From Bacteroidia bacterium (GTDB lineage: Bacteria; Bacteroidota; Bacteroidia; B-17B0; Aurantibacillaceae): DNA of 64,000 nucleotides. Below the pieces are notes generated by a model that was given only the letters and a program-made list of their open reading frames with translations, ran no database searches and was not told where the DNA came from. Position 1 is the stretch's first letter; each line of letters starts with the position of its first letter. Position numbers and translations under genes: made by a program. Below are positions 10,291-22,595 of this stretch, one piece after another. Where the stretch lies: contig JAEUTP010000027.1 in the NCBI GenBank assembly GCA_016787705.1, forward strand, positions 124,001 to 188,000. Direction: 5' to 3'.

Positions 10291-12246
10291 TTAATTTTTT
10301 ACTATTTTAAAATAATTGAATTTTCCGGCGGTATGTACGGTAACGAAATAAACGCCATTATTAAGATAAGCATTCATATCAAAATCATTTTGTCCAACAC
10401 TTAGTGTTTTCTCAATTATTACTTTTCCATGTGGGTCGGTAATAATAATGTTGCAACACTCTTTAACATCAACAATAAAATTTCCATTGTTTGGGTTAGG
10501 ATAAAGGTTAATGACATTTAATTCTTTCTGAAATTCATTTGCTAAACCAGTACATGAACTTATTGTAAAGGTTATTGCTGTACGGGTAATGCTGGTTGTG
10601 CAAGTGGTAGCTTCGGCATAATATGTATACGAACCAACAGCTAAAGTTGGTGTTGCAAAGGTTGTTCCGGTACCTAAACTTAATGTAGAGGATGGTGTAG
10701 CATACCAGTTAATTGTACCATTTCCATTTGCCAATAAAGTTGTTGAATTATTAGGTAAGCAAATTACTTGATTGGCTAAAGGCGTAACATTAGTTGGAGC
10801 TGAAGGAACCATGCACATTTTGTGTACAAAAGCTCCTAGGTTAGCCCCCGATCCTAAAGTGTAGGTGCTAATGCCAGTATCAAAATCAACTGTGTTACCT
10901 ATAAATTCTCCGGCTGTACATATATTACCTGAGGCATCTACTTGAATGGCGTTTCCCTGATCTGATAAGCCACTGCCAATTCTATCTGCAAAAACGAAAT
11001 TGCCATTAGCATCTAATTTTGAAATGAAAATATCAGATTGGCCGGCTGATGCCAAGGTAAATGTCCCAATTCCCGGATCGAAGTCACAAACATTTTCAAA
11101 ATAGCCGGTAAGATATACATTGTTCATTAAATCGGTACATACTTTGTAAGCTTCTTGATCACTAGGGCCACCAACTTGTTTTGCCCATACAAAATTCCCG
11201 CTGGCATCTAATTTTGAAATAAATATCTCCGTTGAAATTCCAGTTGCATTTAGTGTGAATGTTGATGGTCCAGGGTCAAAATCACAAACATCTTGAAAAT
11301 ACCCTGTTGTATAAATGTTACCTAAACCATCCAAAGCAAGATCATAGGCCTCTTCATAATCCACACCACCCATGGTTTTTCCCCAAACAAAATTACCACT
11401 TGCATTCAGCTTCAAAACAAAAATATCATCAGTGCTGGATACGGAAGCTACGGTGAATGTTGTAGCCCCCGGATCCATATCAAAGAGTGTAGCACGAAAA
11501 GAACCACATGCGTAAATATTACCGGTAGCATCCAGTTTAATTGAATAGCCAATACTGTTATCATCAACTTTTAAATGTTTTGCGAAAGCAAAATTGCCTG
11601 ATGCGTCTAATTTTAAAATAAACGCATTATCATTGGTTGTGTTTGTCAATGTAAATGTTCCAACTCCTGGGTCAAAATCAACCGTGTAGTTAAAGTAGCC
11701 GGTAGAATAAACATTGCCTGCAGGATCTACATCAACCGAGGTCGCTTCATCAAGCCCAACGCTACCGATTGATTTTGCCCATAAAAAATTACCACTTGAA
11801 TTTAATTTTAAGATGTAAATATCTCTATCGCCATTTGTTGTTAAATTGAATGTACCTGCCCCAGGATCAAAATCACAGGTTCCTTCAAAATAACCGCAAA
11901 CAATTATATTGCCTGCGCCATCAATAGCAAGTGATTTTGCAAATTCGTATGATGTGCCTGCAAGTCTTTTGGCCCAAAGAAAATTGCCGTTGGCATCAAA
12001 TTTAGAAATAAAAACATCATTAAATGTTAAGGCTGTCATTGTAAATGTGCCTGGACTTGGATCAAAATCTGTAGTGCCATAAAAATCACCAACAGTATAA
12101 ACATTGCCAAAGGCATCTACTTTTATTGACGATGCTGAATTCGCCGAAGTTCCGCCCATTGCTTTAGCCCAAACAAGGTTATTGGTTTGTGAGAAAGAGG
12201 TAGTAACCAAAAATAAAAGTAAAAATATTAGCGAGTTTTTTTTCAT
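10291..12246 (-). CDS. SBBP seven-repeat surface protein with T9SS tail
   Basis: The 651-residue protein is the third SBBP paralog. A 20-residue signal peptide (ending TTSFSQ) is followed by seven propeller-type repeats with DFDPGAGTFNL-like turns; the fourth reads FDMDPGATTF. One Ig-like domain (INWYATPSSTLSLG) and a T9SS sorting domain (NLYPNPNNGNFIVDV; GVYFVTV) complete it. The sorting domain carries a Cys-Cys pair (VKECCNIII) not seen in the other three. It begins 37 bases after the stop of the paralog at 12284, indicating a second tandem pair. It probably serves as a secreted surface protein; the ligand is unknown. Confidence 0.88.
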   Translation of the reverse strand: MKKNSLIFLLLFLVTTSFSQTNNLVWAKAMGGTSANSASSIKVDAFGNVYTVGDFYGTTDFDPSPGTFTMTALTFNDVFISKFDANGNFLWAKRLAGTSYEFAKSLAIDGAGNIIVCGYFEGTCDFDPGAGTFNLTTNGDRDIYILKLNSSGNFLWAKSIGSVGLDEATSVDVDPAGNVYSTGYFNYTVDFDPGVGTFTLTNTTNDNAFILKLDASGNFAFAKHLKVDDNSIGYSIKLDATGNIYACGSFRATLFDMDPGATTFTVASVSSTDDIFVLKLNASGNFVWGKTMGGVDYEEAYDLALDGLGNIYTTGYFQDVCDFDPGPSTFTLNATGISTEIFISKLDASGNFVWAKQVGGPSDQEAYKVCTDLMNNVYLTGYFENVCDFDPGIGTFTLASAGQSDIFISKLDANGNFVFADRIGSGLSDQGNAIQVDASGNICTAGEFIGNTVDFDTGISTYTLGSGANLGAFVHKMCMVPSAPTNVTPLANQVICLPNNSTTLLANGNGTINWYATPSSTLSLGTGTTFATPTLAVGSYTYYAEATTCTTSITRTAITFTISSCTGLANEFQKELNVINLYPNPNNGNFIVDVKECCNIIITDPHGKVIIEKTLSVGQNDFDMNAYLNNGVYFVTVHTAGKFNYFKIVKN

Positions 12247-12283: not shown

Positions 12284-14482
12284 TTAATGTTTTATAATTT
12301 TAAAGTTATTTTTTTTGTCCTTGCTTTGAATATTTATAAAATATATTCCTGCGGCATGATTAGTAATATCGATCTCGTTTTGTCCGGCTACTAAACTTTT
12401 AACTATGATTATTTTGCCGATTGCATCTGTAAGCGTTAATTTACATGGCTCTTGAATATCTACAATTAATATTCCGTTATTAGGATTTGGATAACTATTG
12501 AACTGAAGTATGTTTGTATTCAGTTCATTTATACCTGTACATGCGCTAACGCTTTGGTAAAGTACTGCCGATCCGTTACAACCATTAGCTGCGCCCGTAA
12601 TTGTATATGTTGTACTGATTGTTGGAGATATAACAATATTAGAACTACTACCACCCGTACTCCAGCTATAAGAGTTTGCACCGGATGCACTTAAGGTTGC
12701 CGACTCGCCAGCACAAATAACCGATGCCGAACTAACTACTGATAAGGTTGGATTAGGGAAAACCGTTACTGTTACGGGTAACCTTGATAAACTTGTTGTA
12801 CATGTATTTAAAGCTTCAACATAATAAGTATATGTGCCTGCGGTTAATGTTGTTGTGCTGTATGAATTTCCAGTTGTTAATAATGTACCTGATGTTGGTA
12901 AATTGTACCAGTTTAAAGTTCCGGTACCTGTAGCCGATAATGTAGCAAAATTTCCATCACATAAAGATAAACCTGAGGATGTGTTGGTAGGTAATAATGG
13001 AGGATCGCATTGACTCATTTTATGAATGTAGGCATCTTCTAAACCTAAAGAAGTTAGGTTTAATGTTGCTGGGCCTGGGTCAAAATCTACGGCGCTACCA
13101 CTATAAAAATAACCACAACTAAATACATCGCCTGTTGCATTTACAATAACACAATTACCCCTTTCGCTATTTATACTTCCAAATGATTTTGCCCAAACAA
13201 AACTACCATTAGAAGAATTTAATCTTGAAATAAATATATCTTGTTGACCGATTGCCGATATTGTATAGGAGATAAGTCCCGGGTCAAAATCAGCAGTGCC
13301 TTGAAATCTTCCCGTTAAATATACGCCACTCGTATTATCAACAGCAATATCGTAGGATCTATCAATTGAATTGCCGCCAAATTTATTTGCCCAAACAAAA
13401 TTGCCTGCCTGATCAAGTTTTACACAAAAAACCTCCTCATCAAAGGATCCGGCAGCAAGTGTGTAACTTGTTGCTCCTGGATCAAAATCGGCATCTGTAC
13501 TATAAAAACCACCTGTACAAAAAATATTACCAGAAGCATCAATCGTAAGACCAGTAGAAACGTCGTTGCCTGAACCACCCATTTGTTTTGCCCACATGAA
13601 ATTACCAAGGGCGTCTAATTTCAGAAGATAAATCTCATAATTTCCATTACAAGACATTGTAAAAGTAGAAGGCCCTGGATCAAAATCCATAGTTGAACTG
13701 GAAAAATCGCCGAGAATTATTGGATTACCAGACGCGTCACATCTAACCGACACGCCATAATCTGTAGCTGATCCTCCTACACTTTTAGCCCATTGAAAAG
13801 TACCGGCATTATTTAATTTTAATATAAAAGCGTCTGAACCTCCATTGGACGTCATTGTAAAAGTTGGAGCACCAGGATCGAAATCAGTAATGTTGTCAAA
13901 AGTTCCAGTAGAAAATAAATTACCCGATGGGTCGATTTCAATTGAATTAAATAAAGATTGACCACTTCCTATTAAGGCTTTCCCCCATAAAAAATTACCA
14001 GAGTTGTCAAGTTTGGTAATAAAGCCCGAACCATTAGTGTTTCCTGAAACTGTAGATGTTCCGGCACCCGGATCCAGATCTGTAATTCCATAAGTTTGAC
14101 CACACACATAAATATTACCGCTTGGATCTAATTTAATATCTTTTCCTCCTTCAAAGCTGGTTCCACCAATTTGTTTAGCCCATTGCAATGTGCCACTGCT
14201 ATTAAATTTGCTCACAAACACATCAGAACTGCCAGCCGAAACCAAACTTACATTTAGAGGTCCTGGATCTACATCTATTGTCCCATTAAAAGTTCCAACC
14301 AGGTAAACATTATCTGCTGCATCAATAGAAATTTTTTCTGAAGTACCATAACCGGTACCTCGTGCCACGTTTTTTGCCCATGTAAAATTAGCTATTTGCG
14401 CAAATGAAGAAACCGATAATAACAATAAAAAAACAAAGCCTGTTCTTTTTTTTAATGCATATTGTTTAGTAAAACCTTTCAT
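12284..14482 (-). CDS. SBBP seven-repeat surface protein with two Ig-like domains and T9SS tail
   Basis: The 732-residue fourth paralog has a signal peptide of about 29 residues (LLLLSVSSFAQ). Seven repeats follow with DFDPGPSTFTM-type turns; the first two are diverged (DVDPGPLN, DLDPGAGT). Two Ig-like domains come next: one with LNWYNLPTSGTLLTTG and one starting NPTLSVVSSASVICAGESAT. The last closely resembles the extra domain of the protein at 4968. A T9SS type A sorting domain (NSYPNPNNGILIVDI; GIYFINI) ends it. Each tandem pair therefore has a long upstream and a short downstream member, consistent with duplication of a whole pair. Confidence 0.88.
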   Translation of the reverse strand: MKGFTKQYALKKRTGFVFLLLLSVSSFAQIANFTWAKNVARGTGYGTSEKISIDAADNVYLVGTFNGTIDVDPGPLNVSLVSAGSSDVFVSKFNSSGTLQWAKQIGGTSFEGGKDIKLDPSGNIYVCGQTYGITDLDPGAGTSTVSGNTNGSGFITKLDNSGNFLWGKALIGSGQSLFNSIEIDPSGNLFSTGTFDNITDFDPGAPTFTMTSNGGSDAFILKLNNAGTFQWAKSVGGSATDYGVSVRCDASGNPIILGDFSSSTMDFDPGPSTFTMSCNGNYEIYLLKLDALGNFMWAKQMGGSGNDVSTGLTIDASGNIFCTGGFYSTDADFDPGATSYTLAAGSFDEEVFCVKLDQAGNFVWANKFGGNSIDRSYDIAVDNTSGVYLTGRFQGTADFDPGLISYTISAIGQQDIFISRLNSSNGSFVWAKSFGSINSERGNCVIVNATGDVFSCGYFYSGSAVDFDPGPATLNLTSLGLEDAYIHKMSQCDPPLLPTNTSSGLSLCDGNFATLSATGTGTLNWYNLPTSGTLLTTGNSYSTTTLTAGTYTYYVEALNTCTTSLSRLPVTVTVFPNPTLSVVSSASVICAGESATLSASGANSYSWSTGGSSSNIVISPTISTTYTITGAANGCNGSAVLYQSVSACTGINELNTNILQFNSYPNPNNGILIVDIQEPCKLTLTDAIGKIIIVKSLVAGQNEIDITNHAAGIYFINIQSKDKKNNFKIIKH

Positions 14483-14709: not shown

Positions 14710-15831
14710 ATGAAATATTATCTAACTTTTCTAATTTGGCTTATCATAAGCTATGAGTTAGCTGGAAATGACGGGTCTTTTTACGCGTCGGGAAATAACT
14801 TAATTCCATTACAGGAAACAAAAATCGCACTAAATAAGGAAATACTAATTTTTAAAATAAAAAGCTTTAGTTATTTGTATGTAGATGTTTACTTTGAGTT
14901 TTTTAATCCGGACGAAGAGAAAAAAATTTTAGTTGGATTTGTAACACCACCTGCAACTGGAGATGTTTCTGAGGATGATGAAAAACATCCAAAAATAAAT
15001 GACTTTACTGTGATTATGAATGATAAAGAGTTGCCGTTTAAAGTGAAGCGTATGCAAGAAACATCTTTTAAATCTGATTTAGATATTAATGCCGTTGACT
15101 TTGTTTACTATTTTGAGGCAACCTTTAAAAAAGGAATCAACAAAATAAAACATACCTATAATTACAAATCCAGAAGTGGCGTGGAAGCATATAGAGAATT
15201 TGATTATCAAATTACAACCGGTAAAAGATGGGCCAATAAAAAAATAAATGATTTTGAATTACAAATCCATTTAGATAATGGTATATTTTTCATACCGGCT
15301 TCGCTCTCTAAAAACTATTCAAAAATAAACTGGAAAATAAAAGGCTCCGGTAGTTTTAAAGAGGGTACAGAAAAATCCTTTTCAGATCATGGATTAATTC
15401 CTTATCAGTATGTGCATTTAAACAATGGCTATATCTATTTTAATGAAACAAACTTCTCTCCCGATTTTGATATTTTTTTTGGTGAAAACGCATGGCATTC
15501 ATATACGCATAAATGGTGCAAAATACAGGATGAATGCTCTGCAAATAATGTGCTCAAAAAAATAGCACCGTACTGCAAATTACAGCCAGAATATGAGGAG
15601 ACAAATATTAAACAAGATTTAACAGGCATGGAAATCAAACTACTTAAAAACTATTTTTATGCTTTAAGAGGTTTACAGTTTAATAGTAAAATTATTGCGG
15701 ATTTTTATTCTACTTTTTTTTGGTATACGCCTATAAAGGAATTAAAAGCCTATTCAATTAAATTGAGTTTTGAAGAACAAAAATTTGTGAAACTTTTAAA
15801 CAAATTAGAAAAAGAAACTTCTGAAAAGTGA
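14710..15831 (+). CDS. Secreted DUF4424-like protein with C-terminal YARHG domain
   Basis: The 373-residue protein has a signal peptide (about 1-19, ending ELAGN). The next part (GSFYASGNNLIPLQETKIAL, then VDVYFEFFNPDEEKKILVGF) resembles DUF4424, a beta-rich exported domain. The C-terminus (about 310-368: EIKLLKNYFYALRGLQF, WYTPIKE, LSFEEQKFVKLLNKLE) fits YARHG, a small extracellular domain thought to bind cell-wall material; the Tyr-Ala-Leu-Arg-Gly here stands for the usual YARHG. Both assignments come from motif recall. It is the first plus-strand gene of the accessory stretch but is separated from the next gene by 387 bases. Confidence 0.65.
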   Translation: MKYYLTFLIWLIISYELAGNDGSFYASGNNLIPLQETKIALNKEILIFKIKSFSYLYVDVYFEFFNPDEEKKILVGFVTPPATGDVSEDDEKHPKINDFTVIMNDKELPFKVKRMQETSFKSDLDINAVDFVYYFEATFKKGINKIKHTYNYKSRSGVEAYREFDYQITTGKRWANKKINDFELQIHLDNGIFFIPASLSKNYSKINWKIKGSGSFKEGTEKSFSDHGLIPYQYVHLNNGYIYFNETNFSPDFDIFFGENAWHSYTHKWCKIQDECSANNVLKKIAPYCKLQPEYEETNIKQDLTGMEIKLLKNYFYALRGLQFNSKIIADFYSTFFWYTPIKELKAYSIKLSFEEQKFVKLLNKLEKETSEK

Positions 15832-16218
15832 AACATGCTTAGTAAAGCTAATTAAAGCCGTTTGAATCACAAAAAATGTTGGTTATAAAGTTAGCTTATT
15901 TCAAACCTTACTATTTTTAATTTTTTACCATCATTTCACGTATTTAAGTAATCGCTTGCTTAGTCTGTTTTTAATTAAGCACATCAAAAAATAATGATGT
16001 TAAGAAAAAAAGTAATCCGTAACAGCTATATATGATATAACTTATGAAGTTATTTGAATGAGCAATTCTGTTTTCTGAAAATTTAATGACTTATATGTAA
16101 ATTATATTTGTATAACGAATTTCCAATCATTTAACTCAAGTTTTAACGCGTTAGGGGCATTTATGTATAATCCATTTTACATGTTGATTTTTGATCAAAC
16201 TTTACACAAAAAAATAAG
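15832..16218. other. 387-base intergenic region with short palindromes
   Basis: No coding frame is evident. It holds a hairpin at 16037-16053 (ATAACTT-ATG-AAGTTAT), a -7-like TATATTTG at 16103-16110 without a TTG at the proper distance, and a perfect 10-base palindrome TAACGCGTTA at 16144-16153. The last two lie 110 and 66 bases before the next start codon. They could be promoter and operator for the unknown cluster; this is inference. Confidence 0.4.
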
Positions 16219-17592
16219 ATGAAAAAAAATGCTCTTGTTATTTTGATTTGTGTTTTTGTAAACAATTACTTTAACGCGCAAATTGGCGGCTTACTTAGTA
16301 AAATAAACACTAAACCAGGGAAAGAAGAGAATGTAAGGTACAATGCTAGCATACTTATAAATTACACGTACTATTACGAAACACTTATTAAATCCGACTT
16401 ATCAGATACTGAAGTAGCTTTAAAAAAAGAAAAAGTAGCGTCACTTCTTAGTTCAGATTCTGCCAAACAAATTTATGATTACGTTGAGAAAAACTTAAAA
16501 AAGTATACAGAAAATAAAAGCGTAGCCGAAAATTACATGTCTACTTTTTCAAAATTTAATACAACATTTGAATCAGAGGTCATAACAAAAATAAATGAAA
16601 AATTAAGAACACCTTATAGTGAGGTATATGAAGTAACAGAACGTGAGTTTTTTTGGTTTAAAAATACATTTATAGCAATTAATAGTGTTAGAAAAGCCTA
16701 TACGGGCACAAACAATTTAGACGATCTTTTAAAAAGCGTAGAAATTAAAAAGAATGAATATACGGCTGCGCTTATTAAAACTAAAACTATTGGTTGTGCC
16801 GATCAGTTAAATTATTACAAGCAAATACGATTATCGGATATAAGTAACGAAACCGATTGTAAAAAAGGTAAAGATAAGTTCGCTTCAGATGTTACTGATA
16901 ACGGCGTTTATATTTATTATACAGGAGAATTAGCACTTCATTTATGTAAAATTTACATTGATGGTAAAGACGCTGGTACGTTAGCAAAAGACGATATAGC
17001 TGCGAGTAATAATGGTAACCCCAAACCCGAAAACGGATGGTATAAAATTCAACTTTTACCGGGATTAAATGAGTACAATTCAAGATCGGTAGCGAGATTG
17101 GGAGTATTTATTAAAAATTATGGCTTACACAAAAACTCGGAAATAGTAATTAAATATTCAGATAATTCAAATCAGTTTATTTATAATATTTCAAAATATC
17201 AAAATACTATTTCAGAATACCATAATCAAATAAACAATACTCAACTAAAATCTATAAAATTAACTGATACAAAGTATAAAAACGCCGTTTTAGAAAATGA
17301 GGCCATAGAGGCTTATAATAAATTTAAAACTACAAATCCTCAATACGATGAAGGAGAAGTTAAAAAGGTTAGTGTTGCAGGAAATAACTGGACAGTTTAT
17401 AAAACAAAGTCAGGTGAATTAGATTATCAGCAAACCGACGCATATTTTGTTTTGAAGGGAAAAGATGGAAAATGCTATGAAGATTTTAGAAAAATAAGAA
17501 AGGTGTACAATTCATCTACCAAAATGTATGGAATACTAAAAGTAGTGGGTGCGCCGGATAAAAAAGAAATTTCGTGTGATCTGGTAAAATAA
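16219..17592 (+). CDS. Unknown exported protein, shared C-terminal module (cluster gene 1)
   Basis: The 457-residue protein starts with a signal peptide (about 1-21, NNYFNAQ). A helical, Lys/Glu/Tyr-rich region follows (about 40-190), then a beta-rich middle (about 225-325, with GVYIYYTGEL and IYIDGKDAGTL). The C-terminal module (about 370-457) contains NNWTVYKTKSGELDYQQTDA, GKDGKC, and the ending SCDLVK. The same pattern (Trp, basic residue, Gly-x-Cys, terminal Cys-acidic-x-Val/Ile-Lys) recurs in the genes at 19661 and 20566, and partly in 17744. I do not recognise the family. It opens a same-strand cluster with short gaps. Confidence 0.8.
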   Translation: MKKNALVILICVFVNNYFNAQIGGLLSKINTKPGKEENVRYNASILINYTYYYETLIKSDLSDTEVALKKEKVASLLSSDSAKQIYDYVEKNLKKYTENKSVAENYMSTFSKFNTTFESEVITKINEKLRTPYSEVYEVTEREFFWFKNTFIAINSVRKAYTGTNNLDDLLKSVEIKKNEYTAALIKTKTIGCADQLNYYKQIRLSDISNETDCKKGKDKFASDVTDNGVYIYYTGELALHLCKIYIDGKDAGTLAKDDIAASNNGNPKPENGWYKIQLLPGLNEYNSRSVARLGVFIKNYGLHKNSEIVIKYSDNSNQFIYNISKYQNTISEYHNQINNTQLKSIKLTDTKYKNAVLENEAIEAYNKFKTTNPQYDEGEVKKVSVAGNNWTVYKTKSGELDYQQTDAYFVLKGKDGKCYEDFRKIRKVYNSSTKMYGILKVVGAPDKKEISCDLVK

Positions 17593-17596
17593 AAAT

Positions 17597-17734
17597 ATGG
17601 AAAAACCACAAAAAGAATCTCAAGCTAAGCGTGCAATAAATCAAGTAAAAGTAAGTGCCATAAGGCAAGTAGGTAATGTATTATTAAAGTCATTAACAGT
17701 TTTTTTATCTAAACTATTAGGAAGATATAAATAA
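17597..17734 (+). CDS. 45-residue cationic, amphipathic microprotein
   Basis: An ATG frame of 45 codons lies exactly between two cluster genes, 4 bases after one stop and 9 bases before the next start. The N-terminal third is polar (MEKPQKESQAKR). The rest could form a helix with hydrophobic and basic faces (VGNVLLKSLTVFLSKLLGRY). Ten Lys/Arg against two Glu give a strong positive charge. It has no signal peptide. Its tight fit between genes and non-random composition favour a real gene; a membrane- or protein-binding peptide is inference. Confidence 0.6.
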   Translation: MEKPQKESQAKRAINQVKVSAIRQVGNVLLKSLTVFLSKLLGRYK

Positions 17735-17743
17735 TATAATAAT

Positions 17744-19102
17744 ATGGAACCAACCAACAGGGCAGCTATTACTTACTACCGTACATTTCAAAAGGTACTT
17801 GAAAAGATTGCAGAAATTGATCCAACTGCAAAATCAGCAGCTTATAAAAGTCAGTTATCACAGATGGAGCTTAATCTAAAAAATATTAAAAAGATTGAGC
17901 CGGATTTTGACGTATCTGTTATGGTGGCGGAAGTTGAAAAATATAAAAATACAATTACCAACCAGGACGGAACTAAAGCCCTGGATAAAGATTTAGCCGC
18001 TTTAAACATTAGCCTGAATGGTTTATCAAAATATTTGAATGAAACTAAATTAAATACAGATAATATAGATTTAACGATGGAGGGTTCAACAAAGCCAATT
18101 TTACGCGACATTGCTATCTTCAAGAAAAATCATCCAAAGCACAATATTACAGAATTAGAAAATAAAGTAAAAGATTTCGAAAACAGTTTACGCATAAAAT
18201 TAAATGGTGCCTCTTCTGATCATAAAAATGCTAAGGAACAATTAAAGGAGTTAGAAGAGACAATTTACTTACCTTATTTAACCTGGAGAGATTATGAGCA
18301 CGAAGATTTTATTTATGGTTCACACAATCCAAACGGAGATCCATATTTACCTGATTACATCTGGTCCCAGAATGGAATTAACAAATTACAATCTATTTTA
18401 AACTCGTATCCATTAAGAGCCGAAAAATACCTTGCAAAATACGGCCCACACAAATTAGAAACTTCAAATTCAGCAGGAAGAAAGCAAAGTGCAAATAGTG
18501 TTTCAGAATACAAATCATCGGCAGAAACCAGTTTTCTAATAAATTTTATTAAAAACAATTCACTTAAAGATGCACGAATGAGACTTGCTGAAGTTGAGGA
18601 GAAAATGGACTTTGTTGTTGATTTTTATTTTGAAAGAATGGTAAACGCCTACAGAATTATTAATGCCTCAAAGCTAACTGATAACGCCGAATTAAATGCA
18701 GTGGCAAAAATACACCAAAGTATGGTAGATAAGTTAGGTGATATGGATAACTACAGAAATTTAGTACTTGAAAATACCATTAAAAATGCCAAAAAAGTAT
18801 TTATGCCTAAAGCCAAAATAGAAAACGCTGAAATGGAACAATTAGCGAAAATTGCATTGGAGAGCCGTGGATGGAATGAAACCGTACTAAAGGTAAATCT
18901 CTTAGATTTTGATTGGCGCTTAGAAAGAAATACTGATTTTATAACCGGGCGTGTTTTTGCCGCTAGTATTGCTACAAAAAAAGAAAATGGTTTGTGTATG
19001 TTATATACAGCCACGATAAGACAAGAACAAATTGGAGAGCGCTTTGCCCAACCAATTTTATACTCGTACACAAGTAAATACATTGCTGAAGAGAATATTT
19101 AA
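17744..19102 (+). CDS. Unknown protein, shared C-terminal module, no signal peptide (cluster gene 3)
   Basis: The 452-residue protein begins MEPTNRAAITYYRTFQKVL and lacks a signal peptide or membrane span, so it should be cytoplasmic unless exported by another route. Residues 1-180 are helical with heptad-like spacing. A central part holds an aromatic patch (LPYLTWRDYEHEDFIYGS) and a second helical region (about 270-360). The end (about 365-452) carries FDWRLERNTDFITGRVFAAS, then ENGLC and GERFAQPILYSY, matching the module of the cluster genes at 16219, 19661 and 20566, but it lacks the terminal Cys ending. No known family was recognised. Confidence 0.8.
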   Translation: MEPTNRAAITYYRTFQKVLEKIAEIDPTAKSAAYKSQLSQMELNLKNIKKIEPDFDVSVMVAEVEKYKNTITNQDGTKALDKDLAALNISLNGLSKYLNETKLNTDNIDLTMEGSTKPILRDIAIFKKNHPKHNITELENKVKDFENSLRIKLNGASSDHKNAKEQLKELEETIYLPYLTWRDYEHEDFIYGSHNPNGDPYLPDYIWSQNGINKLQSILNSYPLRAEKYLAKYGPHKLETSNSAGRKQSANSVSEYKSSAETSFLINFIKNNSLKDARMRLAEVEEKMDFVVDFYFERMVNAYRIINASKLTDNAELNAVAKIHQSMVDKLGDMDNYRNLVLENTIKNAKKVFMPKAKIENAEMEQLAKIALESRGWNETVLKVNLLDFDWRLERNTDFITGRVFAASIATKKENGLCMLYTATIRQEQIGERFAQPILYSYTSKYIAEENI

Positions 19103-19113
19103 AATTTTAAGAA

Positions 19114-19530
19114 ATGAAATTACTAAAGCTAAGCGCACTTTTAATAATTACTTTGTTTATTTTTTCCTGCAAAAATTCAGGGAATAGTAATACAGATACA
19201 CGCGATATTTCAAATCAGGATAGTTCGGTTGCGGAAGAGTCACAAAAAGAAAATTTGCAATCTTCAGACAGTTTGACAACTGCCGAAGCAATTACTGATA
19301 ATACCAATACTGAAAGCGAAAACCAGTCAGATTATATAAAAATAATTAACGAATGTGTTGATAAAGTTGATTTTGCGGTTGATCCTTCAGGTGTTCAAAA
19401 TAATTATCTATCAGGAGGTAGTAGTACAGAAATAGCAATGAAACCAGGCGATAAAGTACGATTAATAAACGGTGGTGTTATTTATACACATACTGCCGGA
19501 AGTACTGGTCCTGTTTATTTATGTAAATAA
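19114..19530 (+). CDS. Small lipoprotein of the unknown cluster
   Basis: The 138-residue protein has a lipoprotein signal peptide with LFIFSC and Cys19 as the anchor. A low-complexity Ser/Asn/Thr/Glu linker (about 20-75) follows, then a compact C-terminal domain (about 76-138): IINECVDKVDFAVDPSGVQN, GGSSTEIAMKPGDKVRLING and a final PVYLCK. The two Cys residues of that domain may pair. The layout (anchor, flexible spacer, small domain) suits a periplasm- or surface-facing receptor or immunity-like protein, but no family was identified. It starts 11 bases after the preceding stop. Confidence 0.75.
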   Translation: MKLLKLSALLIITLFIFSCKNSGNSNTDTRDISNQDSSVAEESQKENLQSSDSLTTAEAITDNTNTESENQSDYIKIINECVDKVDFAVDPSGVQNNYLSGGSSTEIAMKPGDKVRLINGGVIYTHTAGSTGPVYLCK

Positions 19531-19546
19531 AGCATATGAAAAAATT

Positions 19547-19651
19547 ATGGAAAATTCATATTTAATTATAATAGTGCTATGTTGCATTATACCGTTAATG
19601 ATAGCAGTAATTAGTTTCAAAAAAAAGAAAGACAATAAAAATAATAAGTGA
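19547..19651 (+). CDS. 34-residue single-span membrane microprotein
   Basis: An ATG frame of 34 codons fills the gap between the lipoprotein stop (16 bases upstream) and the next cluster gene (9 bases downstream). It encodes a short polar start (MENSY), one hydrophobic span of about 17-19 residues (LIIIVLCCIIPLMIAVISF) and a Lys/Asn-rich tail (KKKKDNKNNK). This is a typical single-pass topology with a positive cytoplasmic tail. Position and composition support a real gene; function is unknown. Confidence 0.6.
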   Translation: MENSYLIIIVLCCIIPLMIAVISFKKKKDNKNNK

Positions 19652-19660
19652 GGAAAAAAC

Positions 19661-20545
19661 ATGAAAAAAATAGTATTAGCACTAAGTATAGTAGCCTTAT
19701 CTACAACAAACATACTTGCTCAAACGCGCCCAACCAGAGACCAAATTATGAATGGAAGTAAAAATGCAAAAGGAATTATAGATGACCCATTCATATTCAA
19801 AAGAGCAGAGCTACAAGTAAGCGGGGATAATGTAACAAGCGTTAAGGCCTTTCAGGAAGCAATTGCCAAAAGTGATGCCGTTATTAAAGAGTACGGTGAT
19901 GAAGTGACAAAATTTTTGGCATCCAATCCCTCTCCCGCTATTTTAAAAAGTCATTATAACAGCATCTTATCGAAAGCTAAAGGGGTTGACTCTGAAATTT
20001 CTAAAGTAGCATCAGAATACAAAACCGGAAACTCATTAGGAAGTGTATATTATTTACAAAACCTGTATATATATAAAGGTTACCTGGAAGGTGTAAGTCG
20101 GATTTACACTGAAACACAAGAACTAAAAGATAAACTGGAAAGCGTGAAAAATGCAATTACGCTTTATAAGAGCAGAGATGAATTTATGAATAAAATGACC
20201 GCAAATCAAAAAGAACAAGCTAAAAACATGAAGATGATTCCTGCCGCCCAAAGTAATGCAAAAATAGAAGCGATGGTGAAAAAAGAATATGAAGCAGTTT
20301 TTAAAGAATTTACGGTTACAAAAGTAAATATCACCTATAAAACATGGATTGTAGATAAAAATGAATTAGATATACCGGTATGTAGGAAATTAAGTGTTTC
20401 TGTGGCTGTAAAAAATGCTAAGGGTGAGTGTGGTATTGGCAGCAGTAATGTTAAAGAAGATTATATTGGTGGGGGAAACTATGGTCAAGCTTATTCATAT
20501 CTGCCCTCTGATCCAATAACTGTTCCTTGTGAAAATATTAAATAG
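19661..20545 (+). CDS. Unknown exported protein, shared C-terminal module (cluster gene 6)
   Basis: The 294-residue protein has a 21-residue signal peptide (ending NILAQ). The mature part (about 30-200) is helical, with several segments rich in Lys, Glu and Ala. The C-terminal module (about 205-294) holds YKTWIVDKNELDIPVCRKLS, NAKGECG, GGGNYGQAYSYLP and the ending PCENIK. It is the same pattern as in the genes at 16219 and 20566. Three Cys in this module could form a disulfide in the oxidising envelope. Its stop overlaps an unlikely GTG start of the next gene; the better ATG lies 21 bases on. No family was recognised. Confidence 0.8.
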   Translation: MKKIVLALSIVALSTTNILAQTRPTRDQIMNGSKNAKGIIDDPFIFKRAELQVSGDNVTSVKAFQEAIAKSDAVIKEYGDEVTKFLASNPSPAILKSHYNSILSKAKGVDSEISKVASEYKTGNSLGSVYYLQNLYIYKGYLEGVSRIYTETQELKDKLESVKNAITLYKSRDEFMNKMTANQKEQAKNMKMIPAAQSNAKIEAMVKKEYEAVFKEFTVTKVNITYKTWIVDKNELDIPVCRKLSVSVAVKNAKGECGIGSSNVKEDYIGGGNYGQAYSYLPSDPITVPCENIK

Positions 20546-20565
20546 TGATTTTAACTAAAATAACA

Positions 20566-21435
20566 ATGAGAAATTTAATTATAATCACCTTTAGCCTAGT
20601 TACTATGGTAACTATAGCACAAAAAGAAATTATATTGCCACAAGATTCCACAAAACGTACCTGGGATTTCTTTAAGTATTTTACTGCACCGTCAGCGGGA
20701 AATTTAAATGACGTTGTTGAACCATCGGCTTGTCTTAAAACTGCTCAAAAAAAATATGATCAATCAAACACAAGTTTTGAAAAACTATGGAATGATTTTC
20801 ACAGTGGTAGCAAAAGCTATAAGAAAATCAAAAATGCCGAAAAACAAACAGCCACTACCTGTAAAAGTAATATATATGATGCCAACGCGTACAAAAGTTC
20901 GGTATTGAATGCAACCGATAAGTGTTTAATGGCTGAGTACTATTTCAAAATTAAAGGTTTTGAAGCCTTTATTGAAAAATGCCAACAACTTTATCCATCA
21001 AATTCAATTATTGGTCAGGCGAGCGAAGATATAAAAACCATTGTTAGTGAATTAGGAGATCAAGGAGATTTAAAAGCAATTGAGCAAAAAAATAAGGAAG
21101 ATAAACTGGCAAAAGTAGAACCACCAAAAGCTTTATCTTCAAACCCTGAGTGGGAAAAGTGGTTTAAAGATTACTTTATAAAAGAATATGCCGGGTATAA
21201 ATTTATAAAGCAGTATTTGCGTTCAACAGAGTGGAGTATTCACAGAAACGAAGTTACATCCATAATTATTGATAGGCAAATAGCAAGCACTGTTGCAGCA
21301 ACAAAACCTGATGGAACCTGTGTTTTGGTTGAGTTGGCCTTATATCAAAATTACGAGGGGGGAAAATATGGTGCATCTTATTTTTTAAAAGCGGCTGAAG
21401 CCCAGCAACAAATTTTATGTGAAAAAGTAAAGTAG
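20566..21435 (+). CDS. Unknown exported protein, shared C-terminal module (cluster gene 7)
   Basis: The frame can start at GTG 20545, but the ATG at 20566 places a clean signal peptide (MRNLIIITFSLVTMVTIAQ) at the N-terminus, so it is preferred and gives 289 residues. The mature protein is mainly helical up to about residue 185, with Cys residues at intervals. The C-terminal module (about 195-289) carries STEWSIHRNEVTSIIIDRQI, KPDGTC, GGKYGASYF and the ending LCEKVK. It parallels the cluster proteins at 16219 and 19661. Function is unknown; it is probably periplasmic or surface-exposed. Confidence 0.8.
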   Translation: MRNLIIITFSLVTMVTIAQKEIILPQDSTKRTWDFFKYFTAPSAGNLNDVVEPSACLKTAQKKYDQSNTSFEKLWNDFHSGSKSYKKIKNAEKQTATTCKSNIYDANAYKSSVLNATDKCLMAEYYFKIKGFEAFIEKCQQLYPSNSIIGQASEDIKTIVSELGDQGDLKAIEQKNKEDKLAKVEPPKALSSNPEWEKWFKDYFIKEYAGYKFIKQYLRSTEWSIHRNEVTSIIIDRQIASTVAATKPDGTCVLVELALYQNYEGGKYGASYFLKAAEAQQQILCEKVK

Positions 21436-21470
21436 TAATTTTTCAAAATCTAATTGTTTAAGCCGATTTA

Positions 21471-21917
21471 ATGAAACCAATAACAAAAATATACTTTCTA
21501 ATGTTGGTTTTAGCGGCTTTTATTTCAGGTGTATTTGTATTTCTATATATCAGAGAGAAAAAACAAGATGAATTATTGAATGAACGTGGCATTACAGCTA
21601 AAGCATGGATAACAAATTTAAAACATAGTAAAGCAAGTAAAAAAACAAGTTCAATCTACTACATGGAGGTGGTGTTTTTTTCAGATACATGCAAAATTGT
21701 ACAAGGCTCATTAAAAGCGGTAAAACCTAATACGTTTTCTAAAGTTGATGAAATTTTAAAAAATATGCGAGTTGATAATAAGTCATTCGGTGATTATTTA
21801 ACAAGTACTATTCCAATATCTTATCAGCAATATAGCCACTATAAGGTCAATGATAGGATTGAGGTTATTTATTTGAAAGAAGACCCCAAAGTAATCAGAT
21901 TAAGAAACAATAATTAA
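21471..21917 (+). CDS. Membrane-anchored DUF3592-like protein
   Basis: The 148-residue protein has one N-terminal membrane span (about 8-27, YFLMLVLAAFISGVFVFLYI) followed by a beta-rich soluble domain. The pattern GITAKAWITNLKHSK, then VVFFSDT, then YSHYKVNDRIEVIYLKEDPK is that of DUF3592-like domains, in which Y-x-V-G/N-D and V-x-Y-x-x-x-x-P-x are typical. The role of that domain is unclear. It continues the same-strand cluster, 35 bases after the preceding stop. Confidence 0.65.
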   Translation: MKPITKIYFLMLVLAAFISGVFVFLYIREKKQDELLNERGITAKAWITNLKHSKASKKTSSIYYMEVVFFSDTCKIVQGSLKAVKPNTFSKVDEILKNMRVDNKSFGDYLTSTIPISYQQYSHYKVNDRIEVIYLKEDPKVIRLRNNN

Positions 21918-21926
21918 ACAGTAATT

Positions 21927-22595
21927 ATGGCAATAAAAATAAAAAAAGTAAAAATTAAACCCATTCAATTGGGTAATGGTTCCACAGGAAAAGCTATGGG
22001 TTATTTTCGTAAATTTTCTCTTAGCAGCACCAACAAAAATGCTAATACCTTACGTGAATTAATAACAGGTTTACAATTGCAAGTGGATTTAAACTCATTA
22101 GAAATACCGGATAATGAAAATGAGTGGACCTACTACTCCCAAAATGGCGAATGCAGTTTAGCGCCTGAACCTATTAAAAAAGAGCTAATAGCTACGTACA
22201 AAAAATACTTAAATTTTACTATTGATTTAAAGAATCCTACCGTTGATGAAAGAAAGAACATTCTTTTTAGTCAAAAAAACGACATAGAAATAAGTATTAA
22301 TTACGATAAAAACAATGGTGAAGATCACCCTTTGTGTGTATGGAAGGAATTGGATATAAGAGATTTGGATATAATTGGGCCTGTAAAAGAAGTAGAGTGG
22401 CGCAACTATGATGATGATAATCTCGGTATAGAGCAAGCGTGGGATAATAAACATAAAATACAGCCCGATTTTGGAGATGAGCCTATGTGGCCGCATAAGG
22501 GTTGGAAAAACGATATTGCCGGTTATTTGCCGGGTTATATGATCACGTTAAGTTTTGAGTGCGAAATTGAAGGAGAAATAAAAGATGATGAATAA
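21927..22595 (+). CDS. Unknown acidic cytoplasmic protein closing the cluster
   Basis: The 222-residue protein has no signal peptide or membrane span. A basic N-terminus (MAIKIKKVKIKPI) precedes an acidic body rich in Asp, Glu, Asn and Trp, for example NEWTYYSQNGEC and VEWRNYDDDNLGIEQAWDN. The final strands (YMITLSFECEIEGEI) suggest a beta fold. It starts 9 bases after the DUF3592-like gene, so they are likely translated from one message. Nothing in it matches a family I know. Confidence 0.7.
   Translation: MAIKIKKVKIKPIQLGNGSTGKAMGYFRKFSLSSTNKNANTLRELITGLQLQVDLNSLEIPDNENEWTYYSQNGECSLAPEPIKKELIATYKKYLNFTIDLKNPTVDERKNILFSQKNDIEISINYDKNNGEDHPLCVWKELDIRDLDIIGPVKEVEWRNYDDDNLGIEQAWDNKHKIQPDFGDEPMWPHKGWKNDIAGYLPGYMITLSFECEIEGEIKDDE

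Follow-up and report, generated by a model that had tools for sequence, protein, structure and literature searches.

The window analyzed here, a stretch of 64,000 nucleotides from a Bacteroidia bacterium, carries a closely packed set of genes on its plus strand between positions 16219 and 22595. The open reading frames called from the letters alone were borne out, with their coordinates, their common strand, and their gaps of 4–35 bases (in order 4, 9, 11, 16, 9, 20, 35, and 9). Four of them encode proteins that end in a shared C-terminal module. The first, at 16219..17592, specifies a putatively exported protein of 457 residues with a distinct N-terminal part and the module at residues 363–457 (DNA 17305–17589). 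The second, at 17744..19102, encodes 452 residues without a signal peptide and without the terminal cysteine seen in the other three, its module occupying residues 364–452 (DNA 18833–19099). The remaining two encode putatively exported proteins of 294 residues (19661..20545; module 202–294) and 289 residues (20566..21435; module 196–289), the latter with an alternative GTG start at 20545. A search for related loci with one protein matched a single congener, G006 (JAEUTO01, "MAG: Bacteroidia bacterium"), where an orthologous cluster, L022, holds four module genes in the same order; the ortholog of 16219 lies at L022:13566-15011(-). This cluster differs from that of the window in that a type IX cargo gene is inserted after the ortholog of 17744 and the last two genes are missing or reduced.

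The other genes of the set are a mixed collection. Of two proposed microproteins, the cationic one of 45 residues (17597..17734) appears to be real: it shares 82% identity with a counterpart at L022:13423-13560(-), which directly precedes the 17744-type gene as it does in the window, and no homolog was found in any other fetched locus. The hydrophobic one of 34 residues (19547..19651) is absent from the orthologous cluster, was seen in the window only, and may not be a gene. Readthrough from the 45-residue frame into 17744 would be in frame in the window and out of frame in the ortholog, where the stop-to-start spacing is 7 bases rather than 9, and was therefore rejected. A lipoprotein of 138 residues (19114..19530) ends in VYLCK, and its last 69 residues recur in the 299-residue product of L022:9091-9990(-), such that the two proteins have a second small C-terminal domain in common. 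The 148-residue protein at 21471..21917 has a single transmembrane segment and resembles DUF3592, as had been suggested, but at 14.4 bits (E 0.063) it falls short of the Pfam gathering score of 25.3 bits, so that the relationship is a likeness only; its relatives adjoin other module genes at L027, L031, and, weakly, L131 (tblastn, local HMM). The set closes with an acidic protein of 222 residues (21927..22595), of which a 44-residue N-terminal remnant persists after the L022 cluster.

Upstream, two genes on the minus strand diverge from the set and encode SBBP propeller proteins of 732 and 651 residues with type IX secretion system (T9SS) type A C-terminal domains (12284..14482 and 10291..12246); both are conserved upstream of the orthologous cluster, at L022:15184-17382 and L022:17410-19365. 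Between them and the cluster, on the plus strand, lies a gene for an exported YARHG-domain protein (14710..15831; PF13308, E 4e-10, 39.8 bits against a gathering score of 27). It is possibly associated with the cluster, since a full-length homolog (L133:10515-11672(-), tblastn 8e-40) adjoins a module gene in another class, making YARHG and module genes neighbors in two classes. Papers on YARHG/DUF4424 proteins (PMC3355149, PMC3848476) propose an extracellular location for YARHG domains, which perhaps attach to peptidoglycan or an outer-membrane lipid; the protein at 14710 is a neighbor of the module family and stands outside it. Just 5' of the first cluster gene, TATATTTG (16103..16110, plus strand) matches the Bacteroidetes -7 consensus TAnnTTTG, and is the sole plus-strand match from about 14250 to about 22700, where some six would be expected by chance. 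One promoter and one transcript for the whole set are thus plausible, if weakly suggested by such a match. Scans for sigma-70 promoters and terminators returned chance-level results, and the sequences upstream of the window cluster and of its ortholog, when compared, were generally similar without a clear regulator site. A search of nine window proteins against PADLOC at E 0.01 yielded no match, and thus gave no indication of the neighboring defense genes that had been considered.

That the four tails constitute one family was originally judged by eye, and profile comparison upholds the judgment. With the tested tail and its ortholog removed from a profile of the wider family, the tails are recovered at E values of 6e-7 (16219), 5e-14 (17744), 1e-17 (19661), and 1e-23 (20566). 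When the three other window tails alone serve as the profile, 17744 (5e-5), 19661 (1.5e-9), and 20566 (4e-8) are found, and 16219, at a nonsignificant E of 0.4, is not; grouping this protein with the other three, although correct, needed sequences from outside the window. A profile built from all four tails retrieves all four, with scores that hold by construction, while a search of the genome with 20566 alone reaches 17744 (5.5e-6) and 19661 (3.2e-4) via their tails. The family consensus can be written W-x-I-x-[RK]-N-x-x-T-G ... R ... K-x-x-D-G-x-C ... Q-D-Y-x-G-x-x-Y ... C-E-N-V-K. The terminal C-(D/E)-x-(V/I)-K is present in 16219, 19661, and 20566, as first noted, and 17744 ends in AEENI instead. 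The N-terminal parts are less uniformly different than they were taken to be: that of 16219 is distinct, but those of 17744, 19661, and 20566 weakly join one large helical family. No Pfam or NCBIfam model covers the module in 41 members, a search of PDB sequences gave a best E of 0.64, and in the open-licence papers searched neither the module family nor its linkage to kinases is described; already known are the cystatin-like fold and, as an idea, exported accessory proteins of two-component systems. That these envelope proteins share a homologous C-terminal module is thereby established.

The module is predicted to adopt a cystatin-like fold, in which a helix is followed by a five-strand meander. 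AlphaFold2 models were built for two divergent members, that of 17744 with 41 family sequences, and their tails agree. In 17744 (pLDDT 93–98) the helix spans residues 362–373 and the strands 380–386, 392–396, 399–412, 418–430, and 438–447; in 16219 the same elements occur in the same order at pLDDT of about 75–91, within a model that is otherwise poor. The best sheet-containing structural matches of both are cystatin-fold scaffolds of the affimer/adhiron kind: 6hjl for 17744 (Z 8.9, rmsd 1.9 over 80 residues) and 5mn2 for 16219 (Z 8.2, rmsd 2.8 over 87 residues). Foldseek E values of 0.07 or more are not significant, and a Z of about 8 is near the level that a common arrangement can explain, so that "cystatin-like" is a statement about fold only. 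What the module has in common with phytocystatin scaffolds, monellin, and cystatin C is an antiparallel meander that curls around a helix (Z 8–9 over about 80 residues). It might nevertheless be asked whether the module is a protease inhibitor in the manner of true cystatins, shielding envelope proteins or T9SS cargo from cysteine proteases. The fold would suit such a role, yet it is a common one that tells no function; in the family alignment the inhibitory QxVxG of the first hairpin is absent and KxxDGxC stands in its place; and no recurring protease neighbors were seen. The module also differs from cystatins in having another cysteine pair and in always being a C-terminal fusion, and of the explanations considered here we hold inhibition to be the least credible.

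The cysteine pair, formed by DGxC and the terminal CExxK, is present in 16219, 19661, and 20566. An automatic count found both cysteines in 60 of 73 modules, and five more pairs were recognized by eye in extended tails (L132–L136). Where cysteines are lost they tend to go together, as in L093, L094, L028:7017, and L139; in 17744 and its ortholog the first is kept and the terminal one is missing. The modeled strand register of 17744 brings position 418 approximately opposite position 449 in the last hairpin, which the conserved pair probably clamps as a disulfide in exported members. Signal peptide and terminal cysteine have both been lost from 17744 (17744-19102) and from its counterpart L022:12036-13415, which share 56% identity between two species, while their closest relatives do have a signal peptide. 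The natural reading is that a cytoplasmic paralog would need no disulfide. The same two proteins bear on a further suggestion, that the shared tail marks a common partner or docking site at the outer membrane. Such a site is possible, although 17744 and its ortholog lack an export signal.

Within Bacteroidota the module is sporadic: the order yielded it in 17 of 87 genomes, the class in 22 of 395, and the phylum sample in 17 of 395. At E below 0.001 the genome of the window (G000) has eight copies, and the congener G006 has thirteen. Family members are mostly exported and the module is almost always at the extreme C-terminus, ending 0–5 residues from it in 58 of 73 proteins; some members carry 19–55 residues beyond it (L132–L136, L139), and lipoprotein-like members occur in other classes (L132, L133). 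In a tree of the module, which has about 90 columns and weakly supported deep branches, the four window genes fall into four deep lineages, each beside its own L022 ortholog, and a recent tandem duplication of the four was rejected on these grounds. Conservation of gene order, proposed as a check on the cluster, holds for the four genes in this one congener and does not extend to unrelated genomes, where the recurring context is instead a kinase/LytTR pair beside single module genes.

A first line of association leads to type IX secretion. In the window's taxonomic family, 21 of 29 module loci have T9SS cargo within 2 kb against 8.3 expected from an upper-bound background (P 1e-6); outside that taxonomic family, the linkage to cargo is not significant. 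SprA is found in 43 of the 44 genomes carrying the module, and in the phylum sample in 17 of 17 module genomes against 303 of 395 overall, although this co-occurrence is nearly uninformative because 165 of 171 genera have SprA. The cluster of the window itself adjoins type IX (SBBP) genes and has no kinase nearby. Together with the extreme C-terminal position and similar length of the module, T9SS-rich genomes and neighboring cargo might imply that it is a new C-terminal sorting domain and its proteins T9SS cargo. The type A domain (TIGR04183) is indeed alike in being C-terminal and about 70–90 residues long, and it shares the genomes of the module and is encoded by neighboring genes. Type A domains are Ig-like sandwiches, however, in contrast to the cystatin-like fold predicted for the module. 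An hhalign comparison with local type A domains gave a probability of 0.2%, TIGR04183 or any other NCBIfam model matched none of 41 members, some members are lipoproteins or extend 19–55 residues past the module, and 17744 has the module without a signal peptide. By profile comparison, post-module tails, and lipoprotein members, a sorting function is unlikely, and we give it little credence.

A second and wider association is with two-component systems. Neighborhoods were examined with local profiles for LytTR, LytS-type kinases, and the type IX type A domain over all fetched loci, and the expected LytTR linkage was computed from per-genome counts. A LytTR gene lies within 5 kb of 23 of 63 module loci against 2.5 expected (P 1e-17), and of 9 of 18 loci against 0.5 expected (P 2e-10) in Bacteroidia outside the window's taxonomic family, although the loci share some descent and are to that extent dependent. 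The outer-membrane family OMP_b-brl_2 served as a control in eight genomes: LytTR lay within 5 kb of 1 of its 62 loci, compared with 9 of the 20 module loci in those genomes (Fisher 5e-6). The kinase-linked loci are not one inherited block, since their arrangements differ: kinase, regulator, cargo, and module gene follow in that order at L081 and L084, the arrangement is divergent at L086, L090, L094, L110, and L111, and direct at L095 and L028. The kinases examined combine His_kinase with either TPR or Reg_prop/Y_Y_Y, and the neighbor that recurs most consistently across families of Bacteroidia is a kinase whose sensor part is TPR or propeller. Module loci of other classes lack LytTR within 5 kb without exception, and three of the genomes concerned encode none; in one such class, at L139:4668-8653 and L140:6120-10168, a kinase and a response regulator nonetheless lie directly upstream of the module gene, the regulator of L139 being NarL-type by Pfam in place of LytTR. 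Neither the window cluster nor its ortholog L022 has a kinase or LytTR within 5 kb. A repeated cassette was also observed, in which a TPR kinase and a LytTR regulator are joined by large type IX cargo of the ENKGQ type, the SBBP type, or both, and often then by a module gene (L024, L025, L029, L030, L032, L033, L099); the module match at L024 (G006:C4:115920) was missed by the gene caller and lies outside the linkage counts.

The module sits on exported proteins and, in Bacteroidia, unusually often beside sensor-kinase and response-regulator genes, which makes it a probable, as yet undescribed, partner in envelope signaling. In its specific form, the reading we prefer, at a probability of roughly 0.45, is that module proteins act as envelope partners of LytS/LytTR two-component systems and in places are paired with type IX cargo. 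Its main rival is that the proteins are outputs only: surface or secreted structural proteins, such as matrix, adhesin, or cargo accessories, that adjacent two-component systems regulate and that play no part in sensing. Regulators often neighbor their own targets; the series of kinase, regulator, T9SS cargo, and module in the window's taxonomic family, with the module gene often last, resembles a regulon; and the expansion of paralogs in G000 and G006 suits surface proteins. In several families (L086, L090, L105, L111, and L141) the module gene lies beside the kinase, divergently and without T9SS cargo, an arrangement compatible with both readings, and the linkage as a whole fits both. Outputs without a sensing role are a serious contender, though one that we would tentatively rate short of even odds.

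A precedent for partnership is PorA of Porphyromonas, which is exported, has a T9SS C-terminal domain, and acts upstream of PorY-PorX (PMC7712824), such that exported-protein input to a two-component system exists in the phylum. The PorA-PorY-PorX-SigP system is similar in that it ties an exported protein, equipped with a C-terminal domain of its own, to both a two-component system and type IX secretion. Unlike the module proteins, PorA carries a T9SS type A domain, and its N-terminal domain resembles the FimH ligand-binding domain (PMC7712824). Its confinement to one genus likewise contrasts with the phylum-wide, if sporadic, occurrence of the module family, a comparison in which sequence relationship was examined for the C-terminal module only. 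PorX is not known to be a LytTR regulator.

The four window genes encode paralogs of an undescribed and mostly Sec-exported Bacteroidota family, which combines a variable, mostly helical N-terminal part with a C-terminal module of about 90 residues and predicted cystatin fold; the last hairpin of this module is probably disulfide-clamped from DGxC to the terminal CExVK. If its members are indeed partners in envelope signaling, they would work in the envelope by binding proteins of two-component systems whose LytS-type kinases have TPR or propeller domains as sensors. Helical part and cystatin module would most probably act together to connect the kinase sensor with a protein of the surface or periplasm, a link that would report on, or set the output of, that envelope program; in the window's taxonomic family, these loci are combined with type IX-secreted SBBP propeller proteins. 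The claim is weaker for the window cluster, which has type IX cargo and no kinase nearby, and which may represent a multi-paralog branch unlinked from its kinase. A bolder extension, in which disulfide-clamped cystatin-fold heads form a phylum-wide class of protein ligands for TPR and propeller kinases, coupling them to surface proteins that in some lineages are type IX-secreted, with the cytoplasmic 17744 as regulator or decoy, strikes us as doubtful.

In Bacteroidota genomes of this kind, LytTR regulators can run to dozens, and type IX cargo genes frequently exceed 100. A conserved exported family that lies near kinases in unrelated arrangements offers a concrete candidate partner for these systems, and adds an as yet unnamed domain to be entered in family libraries.
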